Shown here piece after piece: positions 2,356-36,713 of a DNA stretch of 53,101 bases. The stretch's first letter is position 1. Each line of letters begins with the position of its first letter. The position numbers and the translations under genes were made by a program. The stretch is from an uncultured Acidobacteriota bacterium (GTDB taxonomy: Bacteria > Acidobacteriota > UBA6911 > CAINFC01), in assembly GCA_903847975.1 (NCBI GenBank), contig CAINFC010000056.1, positions 1-53,101 on the forward strand. The letters run 5' to 3'. The notes under the pieces are model-generated. The model ran no database searches, was not told the DNA's origin, and saw only the letters and a list, made by a program, of their open reading frames with translations.

Positions 2356-3428
2356 TTCCTCCTCCTGTCGCGCCGGCCTTGCAGCGGCTCATCGGGCCGG
2401 GCCGGAACAAAATAGGCCGCTCCCTTCGATTCGTTGAAAGCAAGTACCCATGCCGGCCTGCCCGGCTCATAGGAAAGCAGATACGTCTGGGACTGCGGCA
2501 GGCGCAGCAGGGTTTTGGGGGCAAAGGGAAGCGACAGGTTTTCCTCTTCCCCGGTGGAAAGCCGGACCAGCCACAATTCCTCCGACAGGGAGCTACCGAG
2601 AATGGCCCTCCCTTCTTCGCCGGCCAGAAAAATCTCCCCGTCAAGATGGATTCGCCCGGAGGAGACAGGGCTGACGGAAGGCAGCCCGGATGCGCTTTCG
2701 ATCCGCAGCAGCCGGTCGCCGCTGCGATCGTAAGCCAGGGCCTCATCGCCGCCGGGTAAAAAAGCCAGGCCGGCGACATCGCCCGGTTGCAGAGGATACA
2801 TCGCCGTGGTACCTCCGCCGGCCGAGTACAGATTCCCATCCCCGCCGACAAACATCAGAAATCCCCGATCGCTGACCGCCAGCAGGCGAATTCCTTCCAG
2901 GTTGCGGTGCCCGGCGATATCCCACAGCAGCACCGGATCCTCCGGCAGACGGCCATAAAGCTGCAGCCGCAATTCCCGCGCGGAGAAAAGCGCCAGGAAG
3001 GAACCGGTCGGACTGAAAGCCAGCCGCGTCGGTTCGAAAAGAGCTTCCGGAAGATCCACGGCCGCCGCTCCGCCCTCGCCGGAAAGCGGCAATAGGCGAA
3101 GCGCATGGGGCCTTTCGATTTCCGCCAGGGCATATCCCTGGCCTGGGGCAAAAAACAGGCCGGCCATGTCTTCCGGCATCTGCCGTCCGTTGTCAAGCAA
3201 TGCGCAGCCAGGAACCCCCACCATGCTCTGCAATTCCATGCGCTCCCGGTCGTAGATAAATCCGAACGCGGGCGCCTGAAGAAGGTTTGCCTCCCCGGAA
3301 GCGCTTTCCGCTCCGCGGCCATTTTCCGGACCAAGCCGGATCCATCCGGCACCCTGCGGGCCGGCGGCTGTCGCACCGGACGAAAGGGCCAGCCAGCCGA
3401 TCACCATGAGGCGCAAAGCTTGTTTCAT
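2352..3428 (-). CDS. exported protein, probable beta-propeller
   Basis: A 358-residue protein with a short signal peptide (about residues 1-22, ending TAA|G). The mature part is a series of beta-strand-like segments such as LLPLSGEGGAAAVDLPEA, FSPTGSFLALFSA and LLAVSDRGFLMFVGGDG. Their spacing resembles propeller blades (FSPTGSFLALFS is WD40/NHL-like), but no family signature is clear enough to name it. It lies 34 bases after the Ig-like gene and overlaps the Thr-repeat gene by four bases, so the three exported proteins are probably made together and may act together at the cell surface. Function unknown. Confidence 0.7.
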   Translation of the reverse strand: MKQALRLMVIGWLALSSGATAAGPQGAGWIRLGPENGRGAESASGEANLLQAPAFGFIYDRERMELQSMVGVPGCALLDNGRQMPEDMAGLFFAPGQGYALAEIERPHALRLLPLSGEGGAAAVDLPEALFEPTRLAFSPTGSFLALFSARELRLQLYGRLPEDPVLLWDIAGHRNLEGIRLLAVSDRGFLMFVGGDGNLYSAGGGTTAMYPLQPGDVAGLAFLPGGDEALAYDRSGDRLLRIESASGLPSVSPVSSGRIHLDGEIFLAGEEGRAILGSSLSEELWLVRLSTGEEENLSLPFAPKTLLRLPQSQTYLLSYEPGRPAWVLAFNESKGAAYFVPARPDEPLQGRRDRRRK

Positions 3429-3462
3429 CGTCGTTCCTCCTTTTCTCCCTCCGGCCGCGAGG

Positions 3463-4104
3463 TCAGGGCTTGGTTACCTGGCCGGGCGTAATAATGCCTA
3501 TGGTTCCGCGCGGGGTGCTCGGCTGGATCACCGTATTCCCCCCTGAATCTTTGCCCCCGCCCAACGCCACCGCAGCGCCGATGCCGGCTGCGGCACCGAT
3601 CCCGGCCAGGATGGCCGCCAGTTTACCGGCACTCATGGCGGAAGCCGACCCCGCCCCGGCACCTGCGGAAGCGGCGGCCGCGGCCGCGTTGGTCTGGGTG
3701 ATAGTAGCGCTGGCGGACATGTTGTTGTAGGAAGCGGTTACTTTGATCTGGAATGTGCCGACCCCTTTCGGAGTGAACAGGCCGGCCTTGGCGGTGCCGT
3801 TCGCATCGGTGATCAGCGTGGCCATCTTCGATCCGCCGGCAAAGCTGCCTCCCGGCCCGCTCATCGGAAGCTGAAACACCACCAGGGCACCGGGCACCGG
3901 GTTGTCGTGCTCGTCGACTACCTTAACCATCGGTTCGCGAACGGTATTGCTGCGGATGATATTGGTAGCCCCGTCCCCCTCCTCCAGAATGATCCTCAAC
4001 CTGGGCGGAGCGCTCTCCTGGGCCAGCACCCAAAGAGGCGCTCGGTGGATCATCATCGCCAGAATCATCGCAACGGAAAACAACGGATAGTATTTCTTCG
4101 GCAT
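3463..4104 (-). CDS. exported Ig-like (invasin Big_1-type) domain protein
   Basis: A 213-residue protein. Residues 1-29 form a signal peptide or anchor (FSVAMILAMMIHRAPLWVLAQ). Residues 45-135 fit a bacterial Ig-like domain of the invasin type, with the hallmarks VVDEHDNPVPGALVVFQLP, TDANGTAKAGLFTP and GTFQIKVTASY. An Ala/Gly-rich stretch (about 137-182) looks like a hydrophobic membrane-associated segment and is followed by a short Gly/Pro-rich tail. AAGGAG lies nine bases before the ATG. It is the first gene of the three-gene exported operon, about 110 bases after the predicted transcription start. Confidence 0.75.
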   Translation of the reverse strand: MPKKYYPLFSVAMILAMMIHRAPLWVLAQESAPPRLRIILEEGDGATNIIRSNTVREPMVKVVDEHDNPVPGALVVFQLPMSGPGGSFAGGSKMATLITDANGTAKAGLFTPKGVGTFQIKVTASYNNMSASATITQTNAAAAAASAGAGAGSASAMSAGKLAAILAGIGAAAGIGAAVALGGGKDSGGNTVIQPSTPRGTIGIITPGQVTKP

Positions 4105-4221
4105 GGAACCCGCTCCTTGCGCTCTTTAAAATTCAAAGGGGGAAAACGCTGCCACTTTATGTTTATGCCCTGGTCGGCACAGCCCACGGCCCACCTGCTT
4201 TGCTGAGAACGATATCCTTCA

Positions 4222-4250
4222 AGTGTAAACCCCGACCCGGAAGGTGTCAA
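4222..4250 (-). promoter_or_regulatory. sigma70-type promoter of the exported-protein operon
   Basis: On the minus strand TTGACA (4250-4245), a 17-base spacer and TACACT (4227-4222) form a near-consensus promoter. Transcription would start near 4215, giving a leader of about 110 bases before the Ig-like gene at 4104. Confidence 0.75.
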
Positions 4251-4287
4251 GCCTTTTGTCTCCGAAGATGGACCTCCCCTTCATCCC

Positions 4288-4316
4288 TTGATTCCGCCTG
4301 GCCGGCACAGTAGAAT
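4288..4316 (+). promoter_or_regulatory. sigma70-type promoter of the EamA gene
   Basis: TTGATT (4288-4293), a 17-base spacer and TAGAAT (4311-4316). The expected transcription start, 4322-4324, coincides with the ATG at 4323. The mRNA may therefore be leaderless, or translation may start at the internal ATG at 4401. Confidence 0.65.
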
Positions 4317-4322
4317 TGCGCC

Positions 4323-5255
4323 ATGCCCGTGAACGATGGGAAGCCTGAGCGGCAGGAATACCGCGCTTGTCCGGTCCGGAGCCCGACCGCATCCCGGCAA
4401 ATGGCCCTGCTGCTGACGGTTCTGGCACTCCTGGCCTTCGCCTCCAATTCCATTTTCGCGCGGCTGGCGCTCGGGAGCCGGCGCATCGATGCCGGGTCCT
4501 TCACTCTGATCCGCCTGGCCAGCGGTGCGATTCTCCTGAACCTCCTGTCCTGGAGGCGCCACCAAAATCCACCCCGGATTTTCCATCCCTGGCTTTCCGC
4601 CCTATCCCTATTTGGCTATGCCGCGCCTTTCTCTTTTGCCTATCTGAAACTGGAAGCCGGAAGCGGAGCCCTGATTCTTTTTGGCGCGGTTCAGGGCACC
4701 ATGATCGGCTGGGATCTTTTCCAGGGAAAGCGATTTCGCTCGCTCGAGTTTGCCGGACTTTGCCTGGCCGTGGGTGGACTGGTCTTCCTGACTCTTCCGG
4801 GTAACCCCCGGGCGCCCGATTTGTCCGGAGTCGCCCTCATGCTACTGGCAGGCGTTTCCTGGGGTATCTATTCTCTGCTGGGCCGCCGGACCCCGGATCC
4901 GCTCCCGACCACGGCGGCCAATTTCCTGACGAGTCTTCTTCCTGCGGCCCCCCTGCTCCTTATGGCCGCTCCGCATGGCTTTGTTTCCGCACAGGGGATC
5001 CTTCTGGCCATCGCATCCGGCGCCTTCGCTTCCGGACTGGGATACACTCTCTGGTACGCAGCCCTGCGCGGCCTGAGCTCAACCCGGGCCGCGCTGGTCC
5101 AGCTTCTGGTCCCGGTACTTGCTGCCTGGGGCGGCGTGCTGTTTCTTGGGGAGAGCCTTTCCTGGAGGCTGGTTTCCTCCGGGGGCATACTTATGGCCGG
5201 GGTTGCCCTGGCTGTGCATTCCAGCCGGGAGCATCCGCAGACATTCCTAAAATAG
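4323..5255 (+). CDS. EamA/DMT-family transporter
   Basis: A 310-residue inner-membrane protein of the drug/metabolite transporter superfamily. After a hydrophilic N-terminus, about ten hydrophobic helices form two EamA repeats. The second half carries the typical GVSWGIYSLLGRR and GLGYTLWYAALRGLSSTRAA stretches, followed by LVPVLAAWGGVLFLGESLSW. Family members export or import small metabolites; the substrate cannot be read from sequence. The frame starts at 4323, exactly where transcription should begin. The first 26 residues are polar and not needed for the fold, so ATG 4401 (MALLLTVLALLAF) is an alternative start. It converges with the UPF0182 gene with a 15-base gap. Confidence 0.85.
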   Translation: MPVNDGKPERQEYRACPVRSPTASRQMALLLTVLALLAFASNSIFARLALGSRRIDAGSFTLIRLASGAILLNLLSWRRHQNPPRIFHPWLSALSLFGYAAPFSFAYLKLEAGSGALILFGAVQGTMIGWDLFQGKRFRSLEFAGLCLAVGGLVFLTLPGNPRAPDLSGVALMLLAGVSWGIYSLLGRRTPDPLPTTAANFLTSLLPAAPLLLMAAPHGFVSAQGILLAIASGAFASGLGYTLWYAALRGLSSTRAALVQLLVPVLAAWGGVLFLGESLSWRLVSSGGILMAGVALAVHSSREHPQTFLK

Positions 5256-5270
5256 AGACCGCTCGCCGGC

Positions 5271-7988
5271 CTATCTGGGCTGCATGCGCCGCAGGATTTC
5301 TTCCAGCTTTTTCAGCTCTTCTCCATAGAGGGCCCAGTTGCCCTGGCGCTGGGCCTCCACGGCCGCCTGATAGTGGCGCAAGGCCTGAGCGGAAAGCTCT
5401 CCGGCCGGAAGGACCTTGCCTCCCGCAGGTTCCGGGAGGGACACCGGAGCGGCGGCCCCCGGCAGAGGCGCTGCGGAATCCGGGCTTAAGCCGGGGAAAA
5501 TCTGCGCCAGGGCCTTTTCCAGGGTTTCCGCCATAGCAATGTTGTTTTCGTAGGCCACCACCACCCGTTTCAGCTCTGGAATTTTCCCTCCCTGGGCGCG
5601 GATGTACAAAGGCCGGACGTAAAGCAGCGATTCCTCCACCGGTATCACCAGCAAGGTCCCGTAATTGACTTCGGAGCCGCGCTGGTCCCAAAGAGTGATT
5701 TCCCGGGAAATGACCGTATCCTGCTGGATGCGGTTTTCAATCTGCTTGGGACCGTAGACCAGCTTTTGCTTGGGGAACCGGTAAACCACCAGCTGCCCGT
5801 AGGCGGCCCCGTCGTTGCGGGCCACCATCCAGGCGGCCAGGTTGTCTCGGCCGCGCGGGGTAAAGGGAATCATCAGCAGGAATTCCTCTTTTTTCTCGGT
5901 CGGCAGCTTCATGATCGTGTAGTAGGGAAGCATCTCCTCCTGGGTGCCGGCGCGGGTGGGAATTTCCCATTGGTCTTCCCGGTTGTAAAAAATCTGGGCC
6001 TGATTCATGTGATAGACCGAGAAGATGCGCATCTGCAGGGAAAAGAGATCCTCCGGATAGCGCAGGTGCTGGCGCAAATCGGCATCCATCTCGCTGAGCG
6101 GGCGGAACAGGCCGGGAAAAATCTTCTCGTAGGTCCGTACCATCGGATCGCCCGGGTCGGCCAGATAGAAGTTCATGGCTCCGTCATAGGCATCAATGGT
6201 GATTTTCACGGAATTGCGGATGTAGTTGATGCCCCCGTCGGCTCTCTGGGCATACGGATACCGGGAGCTGACCGTATAGGCGTCGTATAGCCAGACGAAC
6301 CGCCCCTCGTGGGTCAGCACCAGGTAGGGATCCTGGTCGAAACGCAGGAAGGGGAGTACCAGGCGCACCCGCGCGTGGATATTCCGGTTGTACAGGACCC
6401 GGCTTTCATTGGTAATCAGCGGAGAAGTGAGTATGTTCAGCGACTGAAACTGGATGGCCATGAGCGCCTTGCGCAGCAGGCTCTCCACCGCCACTCCCCC
6501 TTTTCCCTCGTAGCCGGCATACACGTTTTTATCGCCGCTGGGGTAATTGAATTCCGGGTTACGGGTCTGCACGAATGCATAGGAATCGGTCAGCTCCCCG
6601 AAGTAGATTTCCGGCCGCCGAACCGTCAGGTCCGGACTGGAGGAAGCCGGCGGGATATCCTTGACAGTCAACATCGGCAGCCCCTCGGTGGTCACCTGAT
6701 TGACCGGCCCCATGGCCAGTCCGAACCCGTGGGTGAAGGTCAAGTGCTCGTTCAGCCAGTTTCGCTCCGGCAGGTTCCGGGTGTTGAGCTCCCGCGGAGA
6801 CAGCATCAGCTGGCGGCTCTCGCCCTGCAGCGGGTAGCGGTCGTTGTCCACCGAGACAAAGTCGTAATAGGTGCGGATCACCTGGATCTGGGCAAAGGTG
6901 TCCAGCAGGGGGCGGTGATCCCAGAGGCGGATGTTCTTCAGCGTCTTGGCGTTGCTTTCGATCTCCCGCGCGGTGAGCTGCTTGTCGCCGGAAATGTCCC
7001 TCTCCTGCACCCGGTCCAGTCCGTAGCTGCGCTGGGTAGCGGCAATGTTGTGAAGGATGTAGGGGGTTTCCTGCTCCAGCTCATTGGGGGCCACGATCAG
7101 CTTCTGCACCAGCACCGGCAGGGCCTGCACCCCCAGAAAAAGCGTGCCCAGGTACAGAGCGCAGGCGTAGAAAAGGGCGCGGCGCATATTGTAAAAGTAG
7201 TTGACCGCCAGGATCAGCGCCGAAAGGACCGCCGCCGCCACGGCCACCCAAAGCGCCGGGACCACCACATGAATATCGGTATAACAGGCCCCCTGCACCG
7301 GCCCGCGACCGGAATAGAGCAGGTCGAACAGATTCCAGTAGGTCTGAGCCGCCAGCAGCAGAAAGAAGAGAATGCCCAGAAGCGTCAGCTGGCCGCGCAC
7401 CTGGGGAGCCAGGCTCCAGCCGCCGCGGCCCAACTGCAGCAGGTTGCGGGTCCAGGCCAGGACCAGAACGCCGGCCCAGGCCAGCCCGATCAGGAACAGG
7501 CTGAGCAGGGTCAGCCCCTTCCAGACGGGCAGGGTGAAAAAGTAAAAGGACAGATCCTGTCCCCAGATGGGATCCGCCTGCCCGAAGGAGCTATGGTTGA
7601 AAAAAGAGAGCACGGCCATGTAGGACTGGGAGCCGGCCTGGGCGGCCAGAAAGGCCACGACGAACGCCAGCGGCTTGGCCAGCTTCATGGCGTTCTGGCC
7701 GATGTCGATCACCTGAAGGCCCTGGGGGTCCAGGTAAAGAGGCCGGGAGGCCGGCGGCAGCCGTTGTCCGGCCAGCTTCCAGTTCAGAAAGAGCCACAGG
7801 TAGGCAGACACAAAAATCCCGATCCACAAATAAAAGCGGGCCGTCAGGGTACGGGTGAAAACCTGGGTAAAGCCTATTTCCTTAAACCACAGCCACTCGA
7901 AGTAGAAGTTCAGGATCCCGGGCAGCAGAACGGCAAACAGGAAAAAGAACAGAACGGCGGTAACCGCCAGACCAAAACGGAATTTCAT
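5271..7988 (-). CDS. UPF0182 family membrane protein
   Basis: A 905-residue protein that matches UPF0182 (COG1615) in length and character. About seven transmembrane helices lie in the first 310 residues, starting VLFFFLFAVLLPGILNFYFE, with the family-typical FEWLWFKEIGFTQVF. A large extracytoplasmic domain follows (about 310-800), including NIRLWDHRPLLDTFAQIQ and TYYDFVSVDNDRY, which are well conserved in the family. The C-terminal 80 residues are Ala/Pro-rich and then helical. Function is unknown for the whole family. GGAGGG lies seven bases before the ATG. It follows the PlsC gene by 25 bases and is the last gene of the envelope cluster. Confidence 0.9.
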   Translation of the reverse strand: MKFRFGLAVTAVLFFFLFAVLLPGILNFYFEWLWFKEIGFTQVFTRTLTARFYLWIGIFVSAYLWLFLNWKLAGQRLPPASRPLYLDPQGLQVIDIGQNAMKLAKPLAFVVAFLAAQAGSQSYMAVLSFFNHSSFGQADPIWGQDLSFYFFTLPVWKGLTLLSLFLIGLAWAGVLVLAWTRNLLQLGRGGWSLAPQVRGQLTLLGILFFLLLAAQTYWNLFDLLYSGRGPVQGACYTDIHVVVPALWVAVAAAVLSALILAVNYFYNMRRALFYACALYLGTLFLGVQALPVLVQKLIVAPNELEQETPYILHNIAATQRSYGLDRVQERDISGDKQLTAREIESNAKTLKNIRLWDHRPLLDTFAQIQVIRTYYDFVSVDNDRYPLQGESRQLMLSPRELNTRNLPERNWLNEHLTFTHGFGLAMGPVNQVTTEGLPMLTVKDIPPASSSPDLTVRRPEIYFGELTDSYAFVQTRNPEFNYPSGDKNVYAGYEGKGGVAVESLLRKALMAIQFQSLNILTSPLITNESRVLYNRNIHARVRLVLPFLRFDQDPYLVLTHEGRFVWLYDAYTVSSRYPYAQRADGGINYIRNSVKITIDAYDGAMNFYLADPGDPMVRTYEKIFPGLFRPLSEMDADLRQHLRYPEDLFSLQMRIFSVYHMNQAQIFYNREDQWEIPTRAGTQEEMLPYYTIMKLPTEKKEEFLLMIPFTPRGRDNLAAWMVARNDGAAYGQLVVYRFPKQKLVYGPKQIENRIQQDTVISREITLWDQRGSEVNYGTLLVIPVEESLLYVRPLYIRAQGGKIPELKRVVVAYENNIAMAETLEKALAQIFPGLSPDSAAPLPGAAAPVSLPEPAGGKVLPAGELSAQALRHYQAAVEAQRQGNWALYGEELKKLEEILRRMQPR

Positions 7989-9491: not shown

Positions 9492-10825
9492 CGCAGAAAA
9501 TTCCAGAAAAGGCGCGCCTGCCGGTACCAGCTGGACGGATTGCCGTGTACCAGCCGGTCCAGAATATATCCGGGGCGCAGGTAAAATTGCTTCAGGGCCC
9601 GCCGGGTGACCTGCCGCAGCTCCTGGCTGGTTCCCACCTGGCGAAAACACTCGGAAAAGGGGAGCCCGGCTTCCTCTTCCTGCAGACGGTGCAGGTGGGT
9701 ACCCGGATAGGGCGCCGCCATATGGAAGGAGGCGTAGGTCGGGTTTAGCTGCCGGGCCACTTCGATCGTCTGCCGGCGATCCCGGTCCGTTTCGCCGGGG
9801 AAGCCGAACATGAAAAAGCAGGCGGTTTCGATCCCCGCCTTGCGGGTCATCTCCATCCCCTCCCGGATCCGGTTCAGGGTGATCCGCTTGTTGATGGATT
9901 CCAGAACGCGCGGAGAGCCGCTCTCCACGCCGTAGTGAATCAGGCCGCAGCCGGCCTTTTTCATTTTTTCCAGCATTTCCGGCTCGACGGTATCCAGGCG
10001 AGTCTGGCAGGTCCAGCGAAAATCGTACCGCTTGCGGATCAGAAAGGCGCACAGCTCCTCCACCAGGGCCCGATGGACGGTAAATTCCAGGTCGATGAAA
10101 TAACCGCTGCGGGCGCCGTGCTTTTCCACAGCGGTTTCCAGGTCCCGCAGAACCAGCCCCGGCTCCCTCTTCCGGTAACAGCGCCCGTACATTTCCAGGA
10201 GGCAGAAGTGGCAGGACCAGGGGCAGCCGCGGGAGCCCTCCAGAAGCACGAAGCGACGGCCCAGAAGTTCGTAGGAGTAACGATTCAGGTCCGCGAGATG
10301 GTAGGCGGGAACCGGCAGCCGGTTCACATCCAGCGGCTCCCGGGCAACCGTCCGGCGCAGTACTCCCTCCTCCAGGAAGGCAATGCCGGATACCTCCGCC
10401 AGGCTCTCCGCCCGGCACAGCTCCTGCACCGTACGCTCCGGCTCGCCAAGCACCACGCATCGGGCCCGGGTTTGCCGCAGGACCGTTTCCGGCAGCAGGG
10501 TGCCGTGGGCCCCGAGAATGTGGGTCCGGTCGGGCGGCAGGCAGCCGACGGTATCCAGAAACGGCTGGAAGTCCAGATTGGGGCATTGCCACCGGTCGAT
10601 GGGGGAGGAGGTGATAAAAACCCGGTCGAAGGATTGAGCCTTTTGGCCCAGGGCCTGTGGGGAAAGCCAGGAAGCGCGGGCATCGATCAGCTCCACCCGG
10701 TGGCCGTCCTCCTCCAGCAATCCGGCGCAGTTAAGCAGGTCCAGCGGGGGCCAGGCGCGGTTGTACCTCCGTCCGTGGCCGCTGACGAGCCCGTCCCAGC
10801 TTGGATTGATCAGCAGGACGCGCAT
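9488..10825 (-). CDS. B12-binding-type radical SAM protein
   Basis: A 445-residue enzyme. Residues 1-180 look like the Rossmann-type cobalamin-binding domain that precedes many radical SAM enzymes, starting MRVLLINPSW, though the DXHXXG cobalamin motif is not clear. The radical SAM core has CX3CX2C at C201-C205-C208 and later GVESGSPRVLESINK and FFMFGFPGETD, both typical of this class (BchE/hopanoid-type). Relatives methylate, cyclise or oxidise lipids and antibiotics. The start at 10825 lies five bases after the upstream stop; an upstream ATG would overlap it and adds only 12 residues. With glycosyltransferase and acyltransferase neighbours, a lipid or glycolipid substrate is plausible. Confidence 0.85.
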   Translation of the reverse strand: MRVLLINPSWDGLVSGHGRRYNRAWPPLDLLNCAGLLEEDGHRVELIDARASWLSPQALGQKAQSFDRVFITSSPIDRWQCPNLDFQPFLDTVGCLPPDRTHILGAHGTLLPETVLRQTRARCVVLGEPERTVQELCRAESLAEVSGIAFLEEGVLRRTVAREPLDVNRLPVPAYHLADLNRYSYELLGRRFVLLEGSRGCPWSCHFCLLEMYGRCYRKREPGLVLRDLETAVEKHGARSGYFIDLEFTVHRALVEELCAFLIRKRYDFRWTCQTRLDTVEPEMLEKMKKAGCGLIHYGVESGSPRVLESINKRITLNRIREGMEMTRKAGIETACFFMFGFPGETDRDRRQTIEVARQLNPTYASFHMAAPYPGTHLHRLQEEEAGLPFSECFRQVGTSQELRQVTRRALKQFYLRPGYILDRLVHGNPSSWYRQARLFWNFLR

Positions 10826-32067: not shown

Positions 32068-32104
32068 AAAAAAAACACCCCTCCGGAACCGGTCCGAAGG
32101 GGTG
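32068..32104 (-). terminator. intrinsic terminator of the Tes homologue
   Basis: Read on the minus strand, CACCCCTTCGGA-CCGGT-TCCGGAGGGGTG forms a 12-base stem with one mismatch and is followed directly by eight T (32075-32068). It lies about 32 bases after the stop at 32137. Confidence 0.9.
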
Positions 32105-32136
32105 CGGAATATGCGAATACCCTGTAGGCTGAACGG

Positions 32137-33798
32137 CTAGCTGGACTGGCCGCAACCGGCAAAATCCATCTGACATCCGCTGTGCTTTTCGAAGGGGACC
32201 GAATAGTGCTTTTCTATTCTTTCCCGAAAGGTGGGACCGGCGTTATAGGTGCAGAAGGGATAAAGCAGCCCGTTCGGGGCGGCATAATGCACCAGGCAGC
32301 GCTTGACCCTCTCCACATCGAAATTATATCCGTCCATGAAGTGCATGCCGGCCACCATGAGAGTTTTATAGGTGTACTGGCCGTCCATGGCGCCCCGTCC
32401 GTAGTTCTTGTCGGTCATCCCCTGCAGCGTCTGCAGGAAGCGGTTGAACGTCAGGCCGCTGGGAGCTTTATCTTCGTGGAAATGCTTGCGGAGCGTGTTC
32501 CAGACCTGCACCTTGGTGAAAAGCTTGATCCTGGCCGCGCTGGTTTTCTTGGCCAGGCGGTCGATCTCCGTAAGCATGCCGCCGATATTGATAAAACGGG
32601 ATGCCGGCACCGCTTCACCGGTGGTCGGATTAACGAAAAAGTAAGTCCCCATGGCGCACTGCGGGTGGCAGGTAAAGTGGATGGTCGGATCGCCGCGAAG
32701 GGCGCTGATCAGCTTGCTGAAGGGAACCGTGCATGCCAGCGGGAACCAGTCTTCCAGGGCATTGATCAGGCCGGTCTGGCTTTCCACGGAATAGGCTAAA
32801 TCCGAAAGGGTATAGCGCTTGGCATCCCGCTCATGCTTGGCAATCCGGCCGGTAAAGGCCACCGGCTGGAAGCTGATGCCGCTGACGACGTCAATGTTGG
32901 CGATGGCCAGGCGAACAATGTCGCCTACCTGGTGATCGTTCAGACCTTTCACGATGGTCGGAACAAAGACGATCTTGAGATCGGCCTTGCGGCAGGAGCG
33001 AATCGCTTCCAGCTTCTTCTCGGCCAGGTCCTCGCCGCGTGTCTTCCGATATACGTCGTCGGTCACACCATCGAGCTGCAGGTACAGGGTGTGCAGGCCG
33101 GCTTGCTTGGCCTTCAAGGCAAACTCCGGATCGCAGAACATCAACCCGTTGGTAGCCGCCTGGATATGGCTGAATCCCATTTCCCTCGCCATGGAAAGAA
33201 TTTCCATGAAATTGGGATGAATGGTCGGCTCTCCACCGGAAAACTGAACCACTCTGCCGGCGACCGGTTTTTCGTCGCGCAGGGCTTTCAGCATCTTGCG
33301 AATCTTCTCCAGATCCGGCTCATACAGGTACCCGGAATGGTTGGCATTTGCGAAACAGACCGGACAATTCAAATTGCATCGGTTGGTTACATCGACATTG
33401 GCCAGACCCGTGTGACTGCTGTGCATATTGCAAAGGCCGCATTGATCCGGACATACTTTGGCGTTCGGAATAGCGGGATTCGTCAACCCCTGGCCATCCC
33501 CGAAGGTCCATTTGTCCATTTTCAGGTAAAGATCAATATCCGAAGAGAGGCGATCCCGGAATTCCCCATGTTCCGGACACGTCTTGTCCATGAAAACATG
33601 GCCATTATCCGCAACGATCTTGGCATCGATCACCTTCAGGCATTCCGGACAGATCGATTGGGTATGCTTGGGCAAACCCTTGGGTACTGGTTTGATGGCA
33701 GCTCCGGTATAGGTAGTCTTTGGCTGGTCGATGGGATGAGAAGAGACTACATCGAAACGACCTTCTTCCATTACTGGCGCAGCAGACGAAACCGTCAT
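32137..33798 (-). CDS. radical SAM protein, tetraether lipid synthase (Tes)-like
   Basis: A 553-residue homologue of archaeal Tes (MJ0619 type), which couples two lipid tails by C-C bonds to make membrane-spanning lipids. Cysteines C50/C53/C74 fit the N-terminal metal site (CPECLK...CPEHGEF). C116, C120 and C123 lie in VCPDQCGLCNMHSSHTGL. The radical SAM core has C141-X3-C145-X2-C148 (RCNLNCPVCF) and GGE at 188-190 (FSGGEPTIHPNFMEI). The C-terminus adds CLVHY, FCTYN, GCQMDFAGCG. In Acidobacteria, homologues are proposed to make iso-diabolic acid or branched tetraether lipids; that role is inferred here. AAGGAG precedes the ATG by about nine bases. It appears to be a single-gene unit with its own terminator and AT-rich upstream region. 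Confidence 0.85.
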   Translation of the reverse strand: MTVSSAAPVMEEGRFDVVSSHPIDQPKTTYTGAAIKPVPKGLPKHTQSICPECLKVIDAKIVADNGHVFMDKTCPEHGEFRDRLSSDIDLYLKMDKWTFGDGQGLTNPAIPNAKVCPDQCGLCNMHSSHTGLANVDVTNRCNLNCPVCFANANHSGYLYEPDLEKIRKMLKALRDEKPVAGRVVQFSGGEPTIHPNFMEILSMAREMGFSHIQAATNGLMFCDPEFALKAKQAGLHTLYLQLDGVTDDVYRKTRGEDLAEKKLEAIRSCRKADLKIVFVPTIVKGLNDHQVGDIVRLAIANIDVVSGISFQPVAFTGRIAKHERDAKRYTLSDLAYSVESQTGLINALEDWFPLACTVPFSKLISALRGDPTIHFTCHPQCAMGTYFFVNPTTGEAVPASRFINIGGMLTEIDRLAKKTSAARIKLFTKVQVWNTLRKHFHEDKAPSGLTFNRFLQTLQGMTDKNYGRGAMDGQYTYKTLMVAGMHFMDGYNFDVERVKRCLVHYAAPNGLLYPFCTYNAGPTFRERIEKHYSVPFEKHSGCQMDFAGCGQSS

Positions 33799-34078
33799 AT
33801 TTTGAATCTCCTTATAATTATTTTTCTATTTTTTCAGCCACCTGGCGTAAGCAAATCAAGGTCCAAATTTTGTATTTTTCGAAATATAATTTTATAAAAA
33901 CCAATAAAATATTTAATTACAAACACATAGAGGATAAATAGCCAAAAAATCCAAATTCGTTTTCCATACGGAAAAAGAACAGGCTACCAAACAAATGTTT
34001 CCAAATGACACACAAAAAATAATAAGTAGTCCATTTGTTGAAAAAAAGACACAAGCAGAGAAGATCCAAGAGGAAAAT

Positions 34079-34095
34079 TGTGTCATAAAGACACA
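34079..34095. repeat. TGTGTC-ATAAA-GACACA hairpin
   Basis: A perfect 6-bp inverted repeat with a five-base loop, upstream of the Tes homologue. Its right arm is the third of three phased GACACA copies. It may be an operator or a short RNA hairpin. Confidence 0.5.
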
Positions 34096-34184
34096 TTCCA
34101 TCTTTGGGAGAGAAACAGAGGTTAACAACCGTTCCGCAGGGAACGGCACCTGACCGCAATTCGAGGAAGGTTTTGGAGAAAAGT

Positions 34185-34218
34185 AAAAAGCCCTTTTTAT
34201 GGGAAAAGGGCTCTTTTT
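34185..34218. terminator. bidirectional intrinsic terminator
   Basis: AGCCCTTTT (34189-34197) pairs with AAAAGGGCT (34204-34212) around a six-base loop. A run of T follows on the plus strand (34214-34218) and of A precedes it (34185-34188, T on the minus strand). On the minus strand it ends the small protein gene at 34264; on the plus strand it could end a small RNA. Confidence 0.8.
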
Positions 34219-34263
34219 ACATAATCATCGAGTATTCTTCGGAATCTGCTGGTTCCTTTGGTA

Positions 34264-34512
34264 TTACTCTCTTTTCTTTAACAGGGAGTCATTTTCCTGA
34301 ATGAACGAATGAATTTCATCCTGCTTGGCAAGCAGCTTTTCCCACTGTTCCTTGTAAAGAGTTACGGGAAACCGGCCTAAACCGTATACGGATACTGCCC
34401 CTTTTGAACTGACCTTGAAACTGATGGTTGGTGCGATGCGCTGAATTTCGGTTTTCAATCTTTCGTTCTCGCTTTTCAGACGTTCCAGCTCCTGAGCTAC
34501 ATTTTCTTCCAT
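34264..34512 (-). CDS. small conserved-looking coiled-coil protein
   Basis: An 82-residue cytosolic protein. Residues 5-27 form a short coiled coil (VAQELERLKSENERLKTEIQRI). A compact beta region follows with the sequence SKGAVSVYGLGRFPVTLYKEQWEKLL, which looks like a conserved core, and a helical end. No function is known to me. Gene status is well supported: AGGAGG lies eight bases before the ATG, a near-consensus promoter lies at 34566-34594, and a terminator lies behind it. The first helix resembles the SlyX-type or leucine-zipper tether that often mediates dimerisation. Confidence 0.8.
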   Translation of the reverse strand: MEENVAQELERLKSENERLKTEIQRIAPTISFKVSSKGAVSVYGLGRFPVTLYKEQWEKLLAKQDEIHSFIQENDSLLKKRE

Positions 34513-34565
34513 GCCTAAGCCTCCTAATTAGATAGATTTCGAGTTAGAACCTTACTCGGTAGGAT

Positions 34566-34594
34566 ATGATACGGCAATATCGTCGGCAAATCAA
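34566..34594 (-). promoter_or_regulatory. promoter of the small coiled-coil protein
   Basis: On the minus strand TTGATT (34594-34589), a 17-base spacer and TATCAT (34571-34566). Transcription should start near 34559, giving a leader of about 47 bases with AGGAGG before the ATG. Confidence 0.75.
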
Positions 34595-34635
34595 GGTTAG
34601 ATTATAGCGGGGGTACCCGCCGCCCGGATCCTTCA

Positions 34636-34658
34636 ACCGGAGCGGCAGCCGCTCCGGT
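34636..34658. repeat. palindrome at the end of the VWA operon
   Basis: ACCGGAGCGGC-A-GCCGCTCCGGT is a perfect 11-bp inverted repeat. It begins at the last base of the stop codon of the VWA gene on the minus strand. It could stall or stop transcription, though no T-tract follows. Confidence 0.6.
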
Positions 34659-35782
34659 CAGCCGGCTTGTTTGGCCGGTGCCTTCTTCTTGGCAAAGTAG
34701 CCGGATCGAGTCCGGACCCGGTAGTTTTTGGTGGTCGAACCGGTCAGCGACATCTGTATCGCCCGCCAGGTTCCATCCAGCGCCGCATTGGTCGGTATGT
34801 AGCCGATATGGTACTGGTTGCGGAGCTCATGGGCAATGCTCTGCATAATAGTCGGAAGCTGGGAGATATCTTTGGGGAAAACGGCCTTGGCTCCCGTTTC
34901 CGCAGCAATCTTCTGCAGGGCGCCCCTGGCCTTTTCCTGAGGATTCTTGGAGAACACGTCAAAAAGCCCCTGCTCGGGTTCCGGGGTAAGAAATCCGACG
35001 ACATACGCCTGTACATTGGACTCCTGGATAATGCGCAAGACCTCCTCCAGGCGATAGTAGCTGTCCCGGTCCTCTCCGTCGGAAATAATCAGCAGGGCGT
35101 GCTTCTGCCGGGAACCCTTCTGGGCTTTCTGCGTTGCCAGGAGGATCGCGTCATACAGGGCCGTACCGCCGGTGACCATCATGTTGTCCAGGGCGTCGCG
35201 GATGGTATCCAGGTCGTCCGTAAAATCCTCAACCAGGTTTACCTCGTGGTTGAAGGAAACGAGGAAGGTTTCATCTTCCGGATTGCTCAGCTTGAGGAAC
35301 TGCACGGCAGCCTGGTTTACCAGGGGGAGCTTGGTGCGCATACTGCCGCTGGTATCGATGACCAGACCGATGGAAATCGGCATGTCGATCTGACCGAAGT
35401 AGGTGATCGGCTGCTGTACCTTGTTTTCGAAAACGGCGAACTCCTCCTGCTTCAATCCGCTTACAAAATTGCCCTCCTTGTCCACGACGCTGGTGGGTAA
35501 AACCACCAGGTCCACCTCCACCCCGAACCGGAAGGGCTTCCCTTCCTGCTCCTTGTCATCCCGGTCCCTGGCGTCCGGATCCGAGCGGTACTCCAGGTTG
35601 GGCGGCTCTTTTCTGCGGCGCTCGCCCTCCCTGGATTCCCTGCCGGAAGAAGCGGAAGGTTTCTGGGCTGCCAATCCGTCCCTCGAAACCGAGGCGAGGC
35701 AGAGTGCCAGAAAGACGAAAAGAAAAAGGATGGCGTGGCGTTTCACGGAATGGATCGGCTCGCCCTCAGGATTTTGGAGCAT
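34658..35782 (-). CDS. exported VWFA-domain protein of acidobacterial type
   Basis: A 374-residue protein with a signal peptide (about residues 14-39, AILFLFVFLALCLASVSRDGLAA) and a charged Arg/Lys/Asp-rich linker. The von Willebrand A domain has the MIDAS motif DTSGS at 143-147 (IGLVIDTSGSMRTKL), the Thr-containing TGGTALYDAILLA and LLIISDGEDRDS. The preceding region, FGVEVDLVVLPTSVVDKEGNFVSGLKQEEFAVFENK, and the late YHIGYIPTN fit the VWFA-related acidobacterial family (TIGR03436). It probably binds metal-dependent ligands in the periplasm or on the surface. GAAGG precedes the ATG, and a GTG at 35746 is an alternative. It overlaps its paralogue by 17 bases. Confidence 0.85.
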   Translation of the reverse strand: MLQNPEGEPIHSVKRHAILFLFVFLALCLASVSRDGLAAQKPSASSGRESREGERRRKEPPNLEYRSDPDARDRDDKEQEGKPFRFGVEVDLVVLPTSVVDKEGNFVSGLKQEEFAVFENKVQQPITYFGQIDMPISIGLVIDTSGSMRTKLPLVNQAAVQFLKLSNPEDETFLVSFNHEVNLVEDFTDDLDTIRDALDNMMVTGGTALYDAILLATQKAQKGSRQKHALLIISDGEDRDSYYRLEEVLRIIQESNVQAYVVGFLTPEPEQGLFDVFSKNPQEKARGALQKIAAETGAKAVFPKDISQLPTIMQSIAHELRNQYHIGYIPTNAALDGTWRAIQMSLTGSTTKNYRVRTRSGYFAKKKAPAKQAG

Positions 35783-36713
35783 AGTAACCTTCTTTAGTCC
35801 GGACCATCAGCTTCGGCAGTCCTTCCGGGGGGTTCAGCTTGACCTTGAGCTTTCTCCATTTACCGTCGCGCACTTTATTGGTGGACGAGAAACCGAGCAC
35901 GTACTGCTTCCGAAGCTCCGCATGGATGAGATCGCAGTAGTAATCCAGCTCGCTGAAGCTCATCGGGAAGAAGGACCGTCCCCCGGTGATACTGACCAGG
36001 TCCTGGATGATGGAGGTCCCGTAACCCAGCTTGCCCCGCTCGCCAATGGCATAAATCTGGACATCCAGCTCCTTGGAAAAGTCGCGCACCTCGCTGAAGC
36101 TGTAGCGGCTGCTGTTGTCTTCCCCATCGGTGATGACAATCAGGGCCTTTTTTTCGTGCGTCGCCTGATTCATTTTTTCCAGGCCAAGGTAAACCGCGTC
36201 ATACAGGGCGGTTCTTCCCCCGGCACTCCGGAAGGCAACCTGGTTCTGGACATTGGTGGCATCCCGGGTAAAATCCTGAATTAAAGCCGTCTGGTGGTTG
36301 AAGGCCACCAGGAAAAACTCGTCCTCCCTGTTGCCGTTTTGCAGGAAATGCATCACCGAGTTTTTCGCGCTGCCGATATGCTCCTTCATGCTCCCGCTGC
36401 TGTCGAAAACCACCCCCAGGCTGACCGGAGCGTTTTCCTGCGTGAAGTGAGTGATTTTTTGTTCTACGCGATCTTCGTAGAGTGTGAAATGCTCCGGGCT
36501 GAGGCCGGTCACATAACGGTTCAAAGGATCGGTGACCGTAACCTTGACCACCACCAGATCCACATCGACCCGGATCACCGGAGGCCGCTTTTTCTCCTCT
36601 GCCGGGGCATTCTGCGCCGCACCCATCCAGGCCGCCAGTGGCACCGCGCTGATAAGAAGAAGAAACAGCAGTAAATAGAGGTTTATTTTTTGTAAAGAAG
36701 TTTGCTTAGTCAT
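35766..36713 (-). CDS. exported VWFA-domain protein, paralogue of the next gene
   Basis: A 315-residue protein organised like its downstream neighbour: signal peptide (about 10-32, INLYLLLFLLLISAVPLAAW), the family start VDVDLVVVKVTVTDPLNRYVTGLSPEHFTLYEDRVEQKITHF, and a VWA domain with MIDAS DSSGS at 104-108, GGRTALYDAVYLG and LIVITDGEDNSS. Two tandem copies suggest local duplication followed by divergence. Function unknown; this family is strongly expanded in Acidobacteria. It is the first gene of the pair, about 60 bases behind its predicted transcription start. Confidence 0.87.
   Translation of the reverse strand: MTKQTSLQKINLYLLLFLLLISAVPLAAWMGAAQNAPAEEKKRPPVIRVDVDLVVVKVTVTDPLNRYVTGLSPEHFTLYEDRVEQKITHFTQENAPVSLGVVFDSSGSMKEHIGSAKNSVMHFLQNGNREDEFFLVAFNHQTALIQDFTRDATNVQNQVAFRSAGGRTALYDAVYLGLEKMNQATHEKKALIVITDGEDNSSRYSFSEVRDFSKELDVQIYAIGERGKLGYGTSIIQDLVSITGGRSFFPMSFSELDYYCDLIHAELRKQYVLGFSSTNKVRDGKWRKLKVKLNPPEGLPKLMVRTKEGYYAPKS

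Follow-up and report, generated by a model that had tools for sequence, protein, structure and literature searches.

The minus strand of contig CAINFC010000056.1, a 53,101-nucleotide stretch of DNA from an uncultured Acidobacteriota bacterium (hereafter the window), carries at positions 32137–33798 an intact open reading frame (ORF) of 553 amino acids with an ATG start and no internal stop. The encoded protein is a full-length bacterial homologue of the tetraether lipid synthase Tes, an assignment as firm as can be reached from sequence and a predicted structure. By analogy with its archaeal relatives, this radical S-adenosylmethionine (SAM) enzyme of the tetraether/membrane-spanning lipid synthase family probably couples lipid tails in its host, and it is a strong candidate for the enzyme behind the soil lipids from which past climate is reconstructed. 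Branched glycerol dialkyl glycerol tetraethers (brGDGTs) are a main palaeothermometer on land, and both their makers and the enzymes involved are unsettled.

The NCBIfam model NF045702 (tetraether lipid synthase Tes) matches the protein with 567.5 bits (E 2.1e-170) over model positions 2–485 of 486, above its equivalog cut-off of 450 bits. The model of the related TrsS family (NF045646) scores 353.3 bits, which is under its cut-off of 490 bits, and the other families shown stay below 75 bits, with the exception of the intein-containing form of Tes. A Pfam search of the protein detected the radical SAM core (PF04055, 99.1 bits) and an N-terminal zinc-ribbon-like domain named after the Tes family (PF23545, Zn_ribbon_HMPTM, 74.7 bits). 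The closest solved protein by sequence is MJ0619 (GDGT-MAS) of M. jannaschii (PDB-ID: 7TOL; E 2.6e-128, residues 37–538). Moreover, the AlphaFold model (predicted local distance difference test score, pLDDT, 86.9) can be matched to 7TOM with a Z-score of 46.0 over 485 residues, at a root-mean-square deviation of 2.2 and 41% identity; the runner-up fold family, MoaA, reaches a Z-score of 20 and matches in the barrel only. Membership in a different radical SAM family was rejected, since TrsS lies below its cut-off and the scores of MoaA and the remaining families are lower by far. The phylogenetic tree described below agrees with the family models and the fold search in placing the protein in Tes, as the initial annotation had proposed.

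In the crystal structure of MJ0619, Cys9, Cys12, Cys33 and His36 bind a rubredoxin-like iron, Cys73, Cys77 and Cys80 together with a conserved histidine ligate the auxiliary cluster [Fe4S4]N, and the radical SAM cluster is bound by the CX3CX2C motif (PMC9433317). An alignment of 82 rows, including MJ0619, archaeal sequences and the two acidobacterial forms described below (classes A and B), was used to map these ligands onto the window protein, and not a single Tes cluster ligand was found to be missing. The rubredoxin-like domain (residues 43–85, 33544..33672, minus strand, matched by PF23545) displays the pattern C-x2-C-x20-C-x2-H, formed by Cys50, Cys53, Cys74 and His77, which align with Cys9, Cys12, Cys33 and His36. 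The [Fe4S4]N stretch follows at residues 116–126 (33421..33453, minus strand), where Cys116, Cys120, Cys123 and His126 correspond to Cys73, Cys77, Cys80 and His83. Within the radical SAM core (residues 137–298, 32905..33390, minus strand), Cys141, Cys145 and Cys148 form the CX3CX2C motif and align with Cys98, Cys102 and Cys105. All nine of these cysteines, listed in the initial annotation, are present in the ORF translation and fall on crystallographic ligands; the residues which complete the ligand sets, His77, His126 and Met485 (His36, His83 and Met439 in MJ0619), were absent from that list.

The annotation's further claim of extra C-terminal cysteines holds in part. In the region of the C-terminal auxiliary cluster, [Fe4S4]C (residues 381–516, 32251..32658, minus strand), Cys381, Cys501, Cys516, Met485 and Tyr505 align with Cys338, Cys455, Cys470, Met439 and Tyr459 of MJ0619. 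There, Met439 is a labile ligand of [Fe4S4]C, and both Met439 and Tyr459 are conserved in archaea (PMC9433317). The cysteines and the methionine of this region are invariant in class A, archaeal and class B rows, and on the basis of this invariance, rather than of structure coordinates, Cys381, Cys501 and Cys516 are evidently the [Fe4S4]C ligands. The remaining two, Cys542 and Cys549, lie in a disordered tail (pLDDT below 50) and do not belong to the ligand set.

The host genome, 8.1 Mb in size and 99% complete, contains one single Tes, the sole match to NF045702 above cut-off. Its phylum agrees with the earlier guess of an acidobacterial origin. Genes for PcrB/GGGP synthase were not found in this genome, so there is no sign of archaeal-type substrate synthesis. 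The family shared with archaeal Tes might suggest that the host makes archaeal-type isoprenoid tetraethers; given the missing PcrB, archaeal lipid synthesis in the host was rejected. The tree, a quick IQ-TREE calculation with SH-aLRT support in which long branches leave deep placements unsure, points in the same direction, since bacterial Tes including class B forms a branch of its own, apart from archaeal Tes (support 99), with the exception of two Acidobacteriota genomes. Production of isoprenoid tetraethers is hence very improbable. The Tes copies of the two exceptions (L090 in G261 and L091 in G288) cluster with Nitrososphaeria/Bathyarchaeota (99), for which transfer or misbinned contigs are candidate causes.

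A survey of 396 Acidobacteriota genomes distinguishes two main forms of the enzyme. Class A, the type found in the window (at least 600 bits), is present in 25 of the 396 genomes. Class B, a much commoner homologue of about 630–720 amino acids, shows about 36% identity, and the one member tested scores 325 bits, under the Tes cut-off. The ligands of [Fe4S4]N are conserved in class A and in archaea and are lost in the class B paralogues, namely in 21 out of 21 rows aligned (L029–L045, L097–L100): the positions of Cys73, Cys77, Cys80 and His83 are here variable, His, Ser and mostly Lys, respectively. Smaller groups of homologues are found at 40–46% identity. Literature counts of "Tes homologues" probably mix both forms, and dividing the bacterial family by presence or absence of the N-terminal cluster explains why such counts combine different enzymes. 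No class B copy is present in the host genome. In two genomes of family f18, a class B paralogue is located within a few kb of the class A gene (L101 1256–3415 in G138 and L071 3447–4574 in G262), a proximity that hints at a joint action of both forms.

A possible partner of Tes was found on another contig of the host genome, C309, which holds the only match to PF09989. There, a 1021-residue protein with two PF01869 domains and the reductase part DUF2229 (PF09989) is encoded at 3057–6122 of locus L105 (plus strand). Separated by 26 bp, it is followed by a gene for 424 amino acids (6149–7423, plus strand). The pair is homologous to the tes-adjacent pairs found elsewhere. The glycerol ester reductase Ger, which yields alkyl ethers upon expression in E. 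coli, has two PF01869 domains and a mass of 159 kDa (PMC13274423, PMC11150832), and the two PF01869 activation domains are the architecture of the alkyl-ether-forming Ger (PMC13274423). The host 1021-residue protein shows this architecture, two PF01869 domains plus the DUF2229 reductase part, and together with the 424-residue protein it is about the size reported for Ger of D. alkenivorans. The pair has the appearance of a Ger divided over two genes.

Direct linkage to tes is found in three other genomes (G019, G033 and PMZR01000078), in which tes, plsN and plsC are consecutive and co-directional, with tes immediately upstream and the reductase genes overlapping. In Acidobacteriota, PF09989 occurs in 24 of the 25 class A genomes versus 61 of the 371 others (Fisher P 1e-16), and the split-type reductase (called at 1100 bits or more, or from a 63%-identical fragment) in 14 of 25 versus 4 of 371 (P 6e-16). 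At the family level, the overlap amounts to seven families, with individual totals of 10 and 9 (hypergeometric P 9e-7, with 84 families taken). A further set of genomes was reached via named Tes loci. Among these, the reductase is present in 11 out of 12 bacterial genomes (Nitrospinota, Acidobacteria, Planctomycetes, Deltaproteobacteria and one unclassified bacterium) and in none out of 8 archaeal ones (P 7e-5), with an identity of 44–58% in ten of the eleven and of 30% in the other. Archaea do not need an ester-to-ether reduction step, and the presence of the reductase with bacterial but not with archaeal Tes is what one would expect if the substrates of bacterial Tes are fatty-acid lipids that need reduction to ethers.

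In two further genomes (G043 and G057), the gene immediately upstream of tes encodes a CDP-alcohol phosphatidyltransferase (L104 5208–5789 and L075 731–1399), which also points to phospholipids. Apart from this gene, the reductase pair and the class B copy, recurrent neighbours of tes elsewhere are weak only. Genes for B12-binding radical SAM proteins were seen near tes at L053 1847–3340 and L056 2600–4147, with best scores for HpnJ, HpnR and BchE-like models; they are possible lipid-modifying partners acting in methylation or cyclisation.

These neighbourhoods bear on the question whether the protein has kept the Tes fold while acting on another substrate, for example as a cofactor methylase or a peptide modifier. 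MJ0619 was itself formerly annotated as a methyltransferase, TrsS provides a related yet distinct family, and catalysis by bacterial Tes has so far been inferred. However, the protein scores above the Tes equivalog cut-off and below that of TrsS, it retains all four metal centres as well as the cluster methionine and tyrosine, and its relatives are linked to a lipid ester reductase and a CDP-alcohol phosphatidyltransferase. A substrate other than lipid is accordingly unlikely.

For the activity, the substrate, the order of steps and the product of bacterial Tes, we infer a mechanism transferred from the archaeal enzyme. Cleavage of the SAM at the CX3CX2C cluster would give a 5'-deoxyadenosyl radical, to which one lipid tail would lose a hydrogen at its methyl end; a sulfur atom of [Fe4S4]C would then hold the resulting tail radical. 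When another SAM is turned over, a radical would arise on a second tail, and joining of the two sp3 carbons would yield a membrane-spanning chain. The substrates in the host are most likely glycerol-3-phosphate lipids with (iso-branched) fatty-acid tails, and the Ger-type pair encoded elsewhere in the genome could convert these tails, wholly or partly, to ethers. The end product would most likely be a branched GDGT-type or a mixed ether/ester membrane-spanning lipid.

It is possible, if not quite probable, that class A Tes and the two-gene Ger constitute one dedicated and horizontally mobile tetraether pathway (tes-gerA-gerB), shared by Acidobacteriota and other phyla, which would be the real genetic marker of full brGDGT producers, distinct from class B lacking the [Fe4S4]N ligands. 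Alternatively, Tes might couple ester-bound fatty acids to iso-diabolic acid tetraesters, with the Ger-type reductase acting separately on other lipids. This alternative, which we take seriously while stopping short of calling it probable, is favored by the iso-diabolic tetraesters (PMC13274423) of Koribacter, in which a Tes homologue is present (PMC8941075), and by the unlinked positions of tes and the reductase pair in the host genome. Against it speak the operon linkage in three genomes and the strong co-occurrence, which suggest a joint product, as well as S. usitatus, which makes ethers and tetraethers while iso-diabolic acid is undetectable (PMC10087280).

Several points weigh against lipid coupling by the window Tes, or against its proposed role in brGDGT synthesis. 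Tes activity is unconfirmed in bacteria according to work on the Black Sea (PMC11868695), and Ser271 of MJ0619, which contacts SAM, is replaced by Ala in the window protein, an exchange found in 23 of the 38 class A rows. In the host, tes and the reductase pair lie on different contigs. The counts of co-occurrence lack correction for a full phylogeny, and PF09989 also covers proteins other than Ger; the anaerobe-marker control POR (PF01558), present in 363 of the 396 genomes and in 25 out of 25 class A genomes (P 0.11), is too common to discriminate. Finally, the brGDGT producer Edaphobacter aggregans is reported to possess a single, more distant homologue with 32% identity (PMC8941075), so that brGDGT synthesis does not depend on the class A subfamily in every case. 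Coupling of lipid tails by the window Tes nevertheless remains the probable function.

Within the window, no lipid operon was found around tes. Its neighbours are hrcA, dnaK, a LOG family gene, an M16 peptidase gene, ftsK and RNase J, all with housekeeping functions, as well as two genes for VWA-domain proteins, which form a tandem pair with a 17-bp overlap (34658–36713, minus strand). The initial annotation had described the gene as standing alone with its own terminator. A terminator-like hairpin of the intrinsic type, with a 13-pair stem containing 8 G-C pairs and a T-run, is indeed situated 3' of tes (32075..32105, minus strand); the isolation is true of the immediate neighbourhood but not of the genome, where likely partner genes sit on another contig. 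On the 5' side, an AT-rich intergenic region of about 860 bp (33799..34657, about 41% GC) is presumed from its composition to hold the promoter. Zero Rfam matches were obtained in this gap, and promoter-like matches were at chance level. A hairpin located inside it (34185–34216) is terminator-like on both strands. At 9761–10234 (minus strand), the window contains another radical SAM domain (99 bits, open frame of 468 amino acids), which is unrelated to Tes.

The GC content at third codon positions is 0.69 in tes and 0.66–0.80 in its neighbours. Together with the housekeeping nature of the latter, this gives no sign of recent foreign DNA or of a misbinned contig, and both explanations were rejected. 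The nearest relatives of tes, with 64% identity, are found outside the taxonomic class of the host, versus 55% within it; in the tree, the window Tes groups with families f18, f16 and f43 of the same phylum (91) and not with its class-mates in f5. The sequence relationships therefore suggest an older transfer or differential loss in the host lineage.

Comparison with known systems revealed that neither the family nor the idea is new. Zeng et al. listed 456 bacterial Tes homologues, Acidobacteria included, and proposed a role in brGDGT synthesis (PMC8941075), and Halamka et al. proposed that S. usitatus uses Tes together with PlsAR homologues (PMC10087280). Acidobacterial Tes homologues and the brGDGT hypothesis have thus been published since 2022, and the presence of Tes in a bacterium is no novelty. 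The tes-reductase linkage, the co-occurrence statistics and the loss of the N-terminal cluster in class B were not found described in the literature searched, the scope of which excluded most subscription papers. Co-occurrence and linkage of class A Tes with Ger/PlsA-family proteins in Acidobacteriota are a useful addition: tes and the two reductase genes offer a compact gene set for joint expression, and class A Tes with the reductase would be a more specific metagenome marker of brGDGT producers than any Tes homologue.

The window Tes resembles MJ0619/GDGT-MAS (7TOL/7TOM) in domain order, in all metal ligands and in fold. It differs in its bacterial host without GGGP synthase, in the fatty-acid-derived tails expected as substrate, in an N-terminal extension of about 40 residues and in the exchange of Ser271 for Ala. 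With TrsS, a radical SAM (seleno)protein, it has the N-terminal and radical SAM regions in common, yet it stays below the cut-off of that family, and TrsS-like relatives possess an in-frame TGA. The Tes proteins of Koribacter versatilis, Solibacter usitatus and Edaphobacter aggregans belong to the same phylum and family and have already been proposed for brGDGTs (PMC8941075, PMC10087280), and S. usitatus also carries PlsAR homologues (PMC10087280); in contrast to these, the host represents a different lineage within the phylum and has the class A form only. The Mss/Ger route of Thermotoga and Bacillota is a competing or parallel proposal (PMC13274423). It resembles the host system in the chemistry proposed for it, by which tails are joined and esters reduced to ethers, and in a Ger-type partner with two activation domains; the Ger-type protein of the host differs in being split into two genes.
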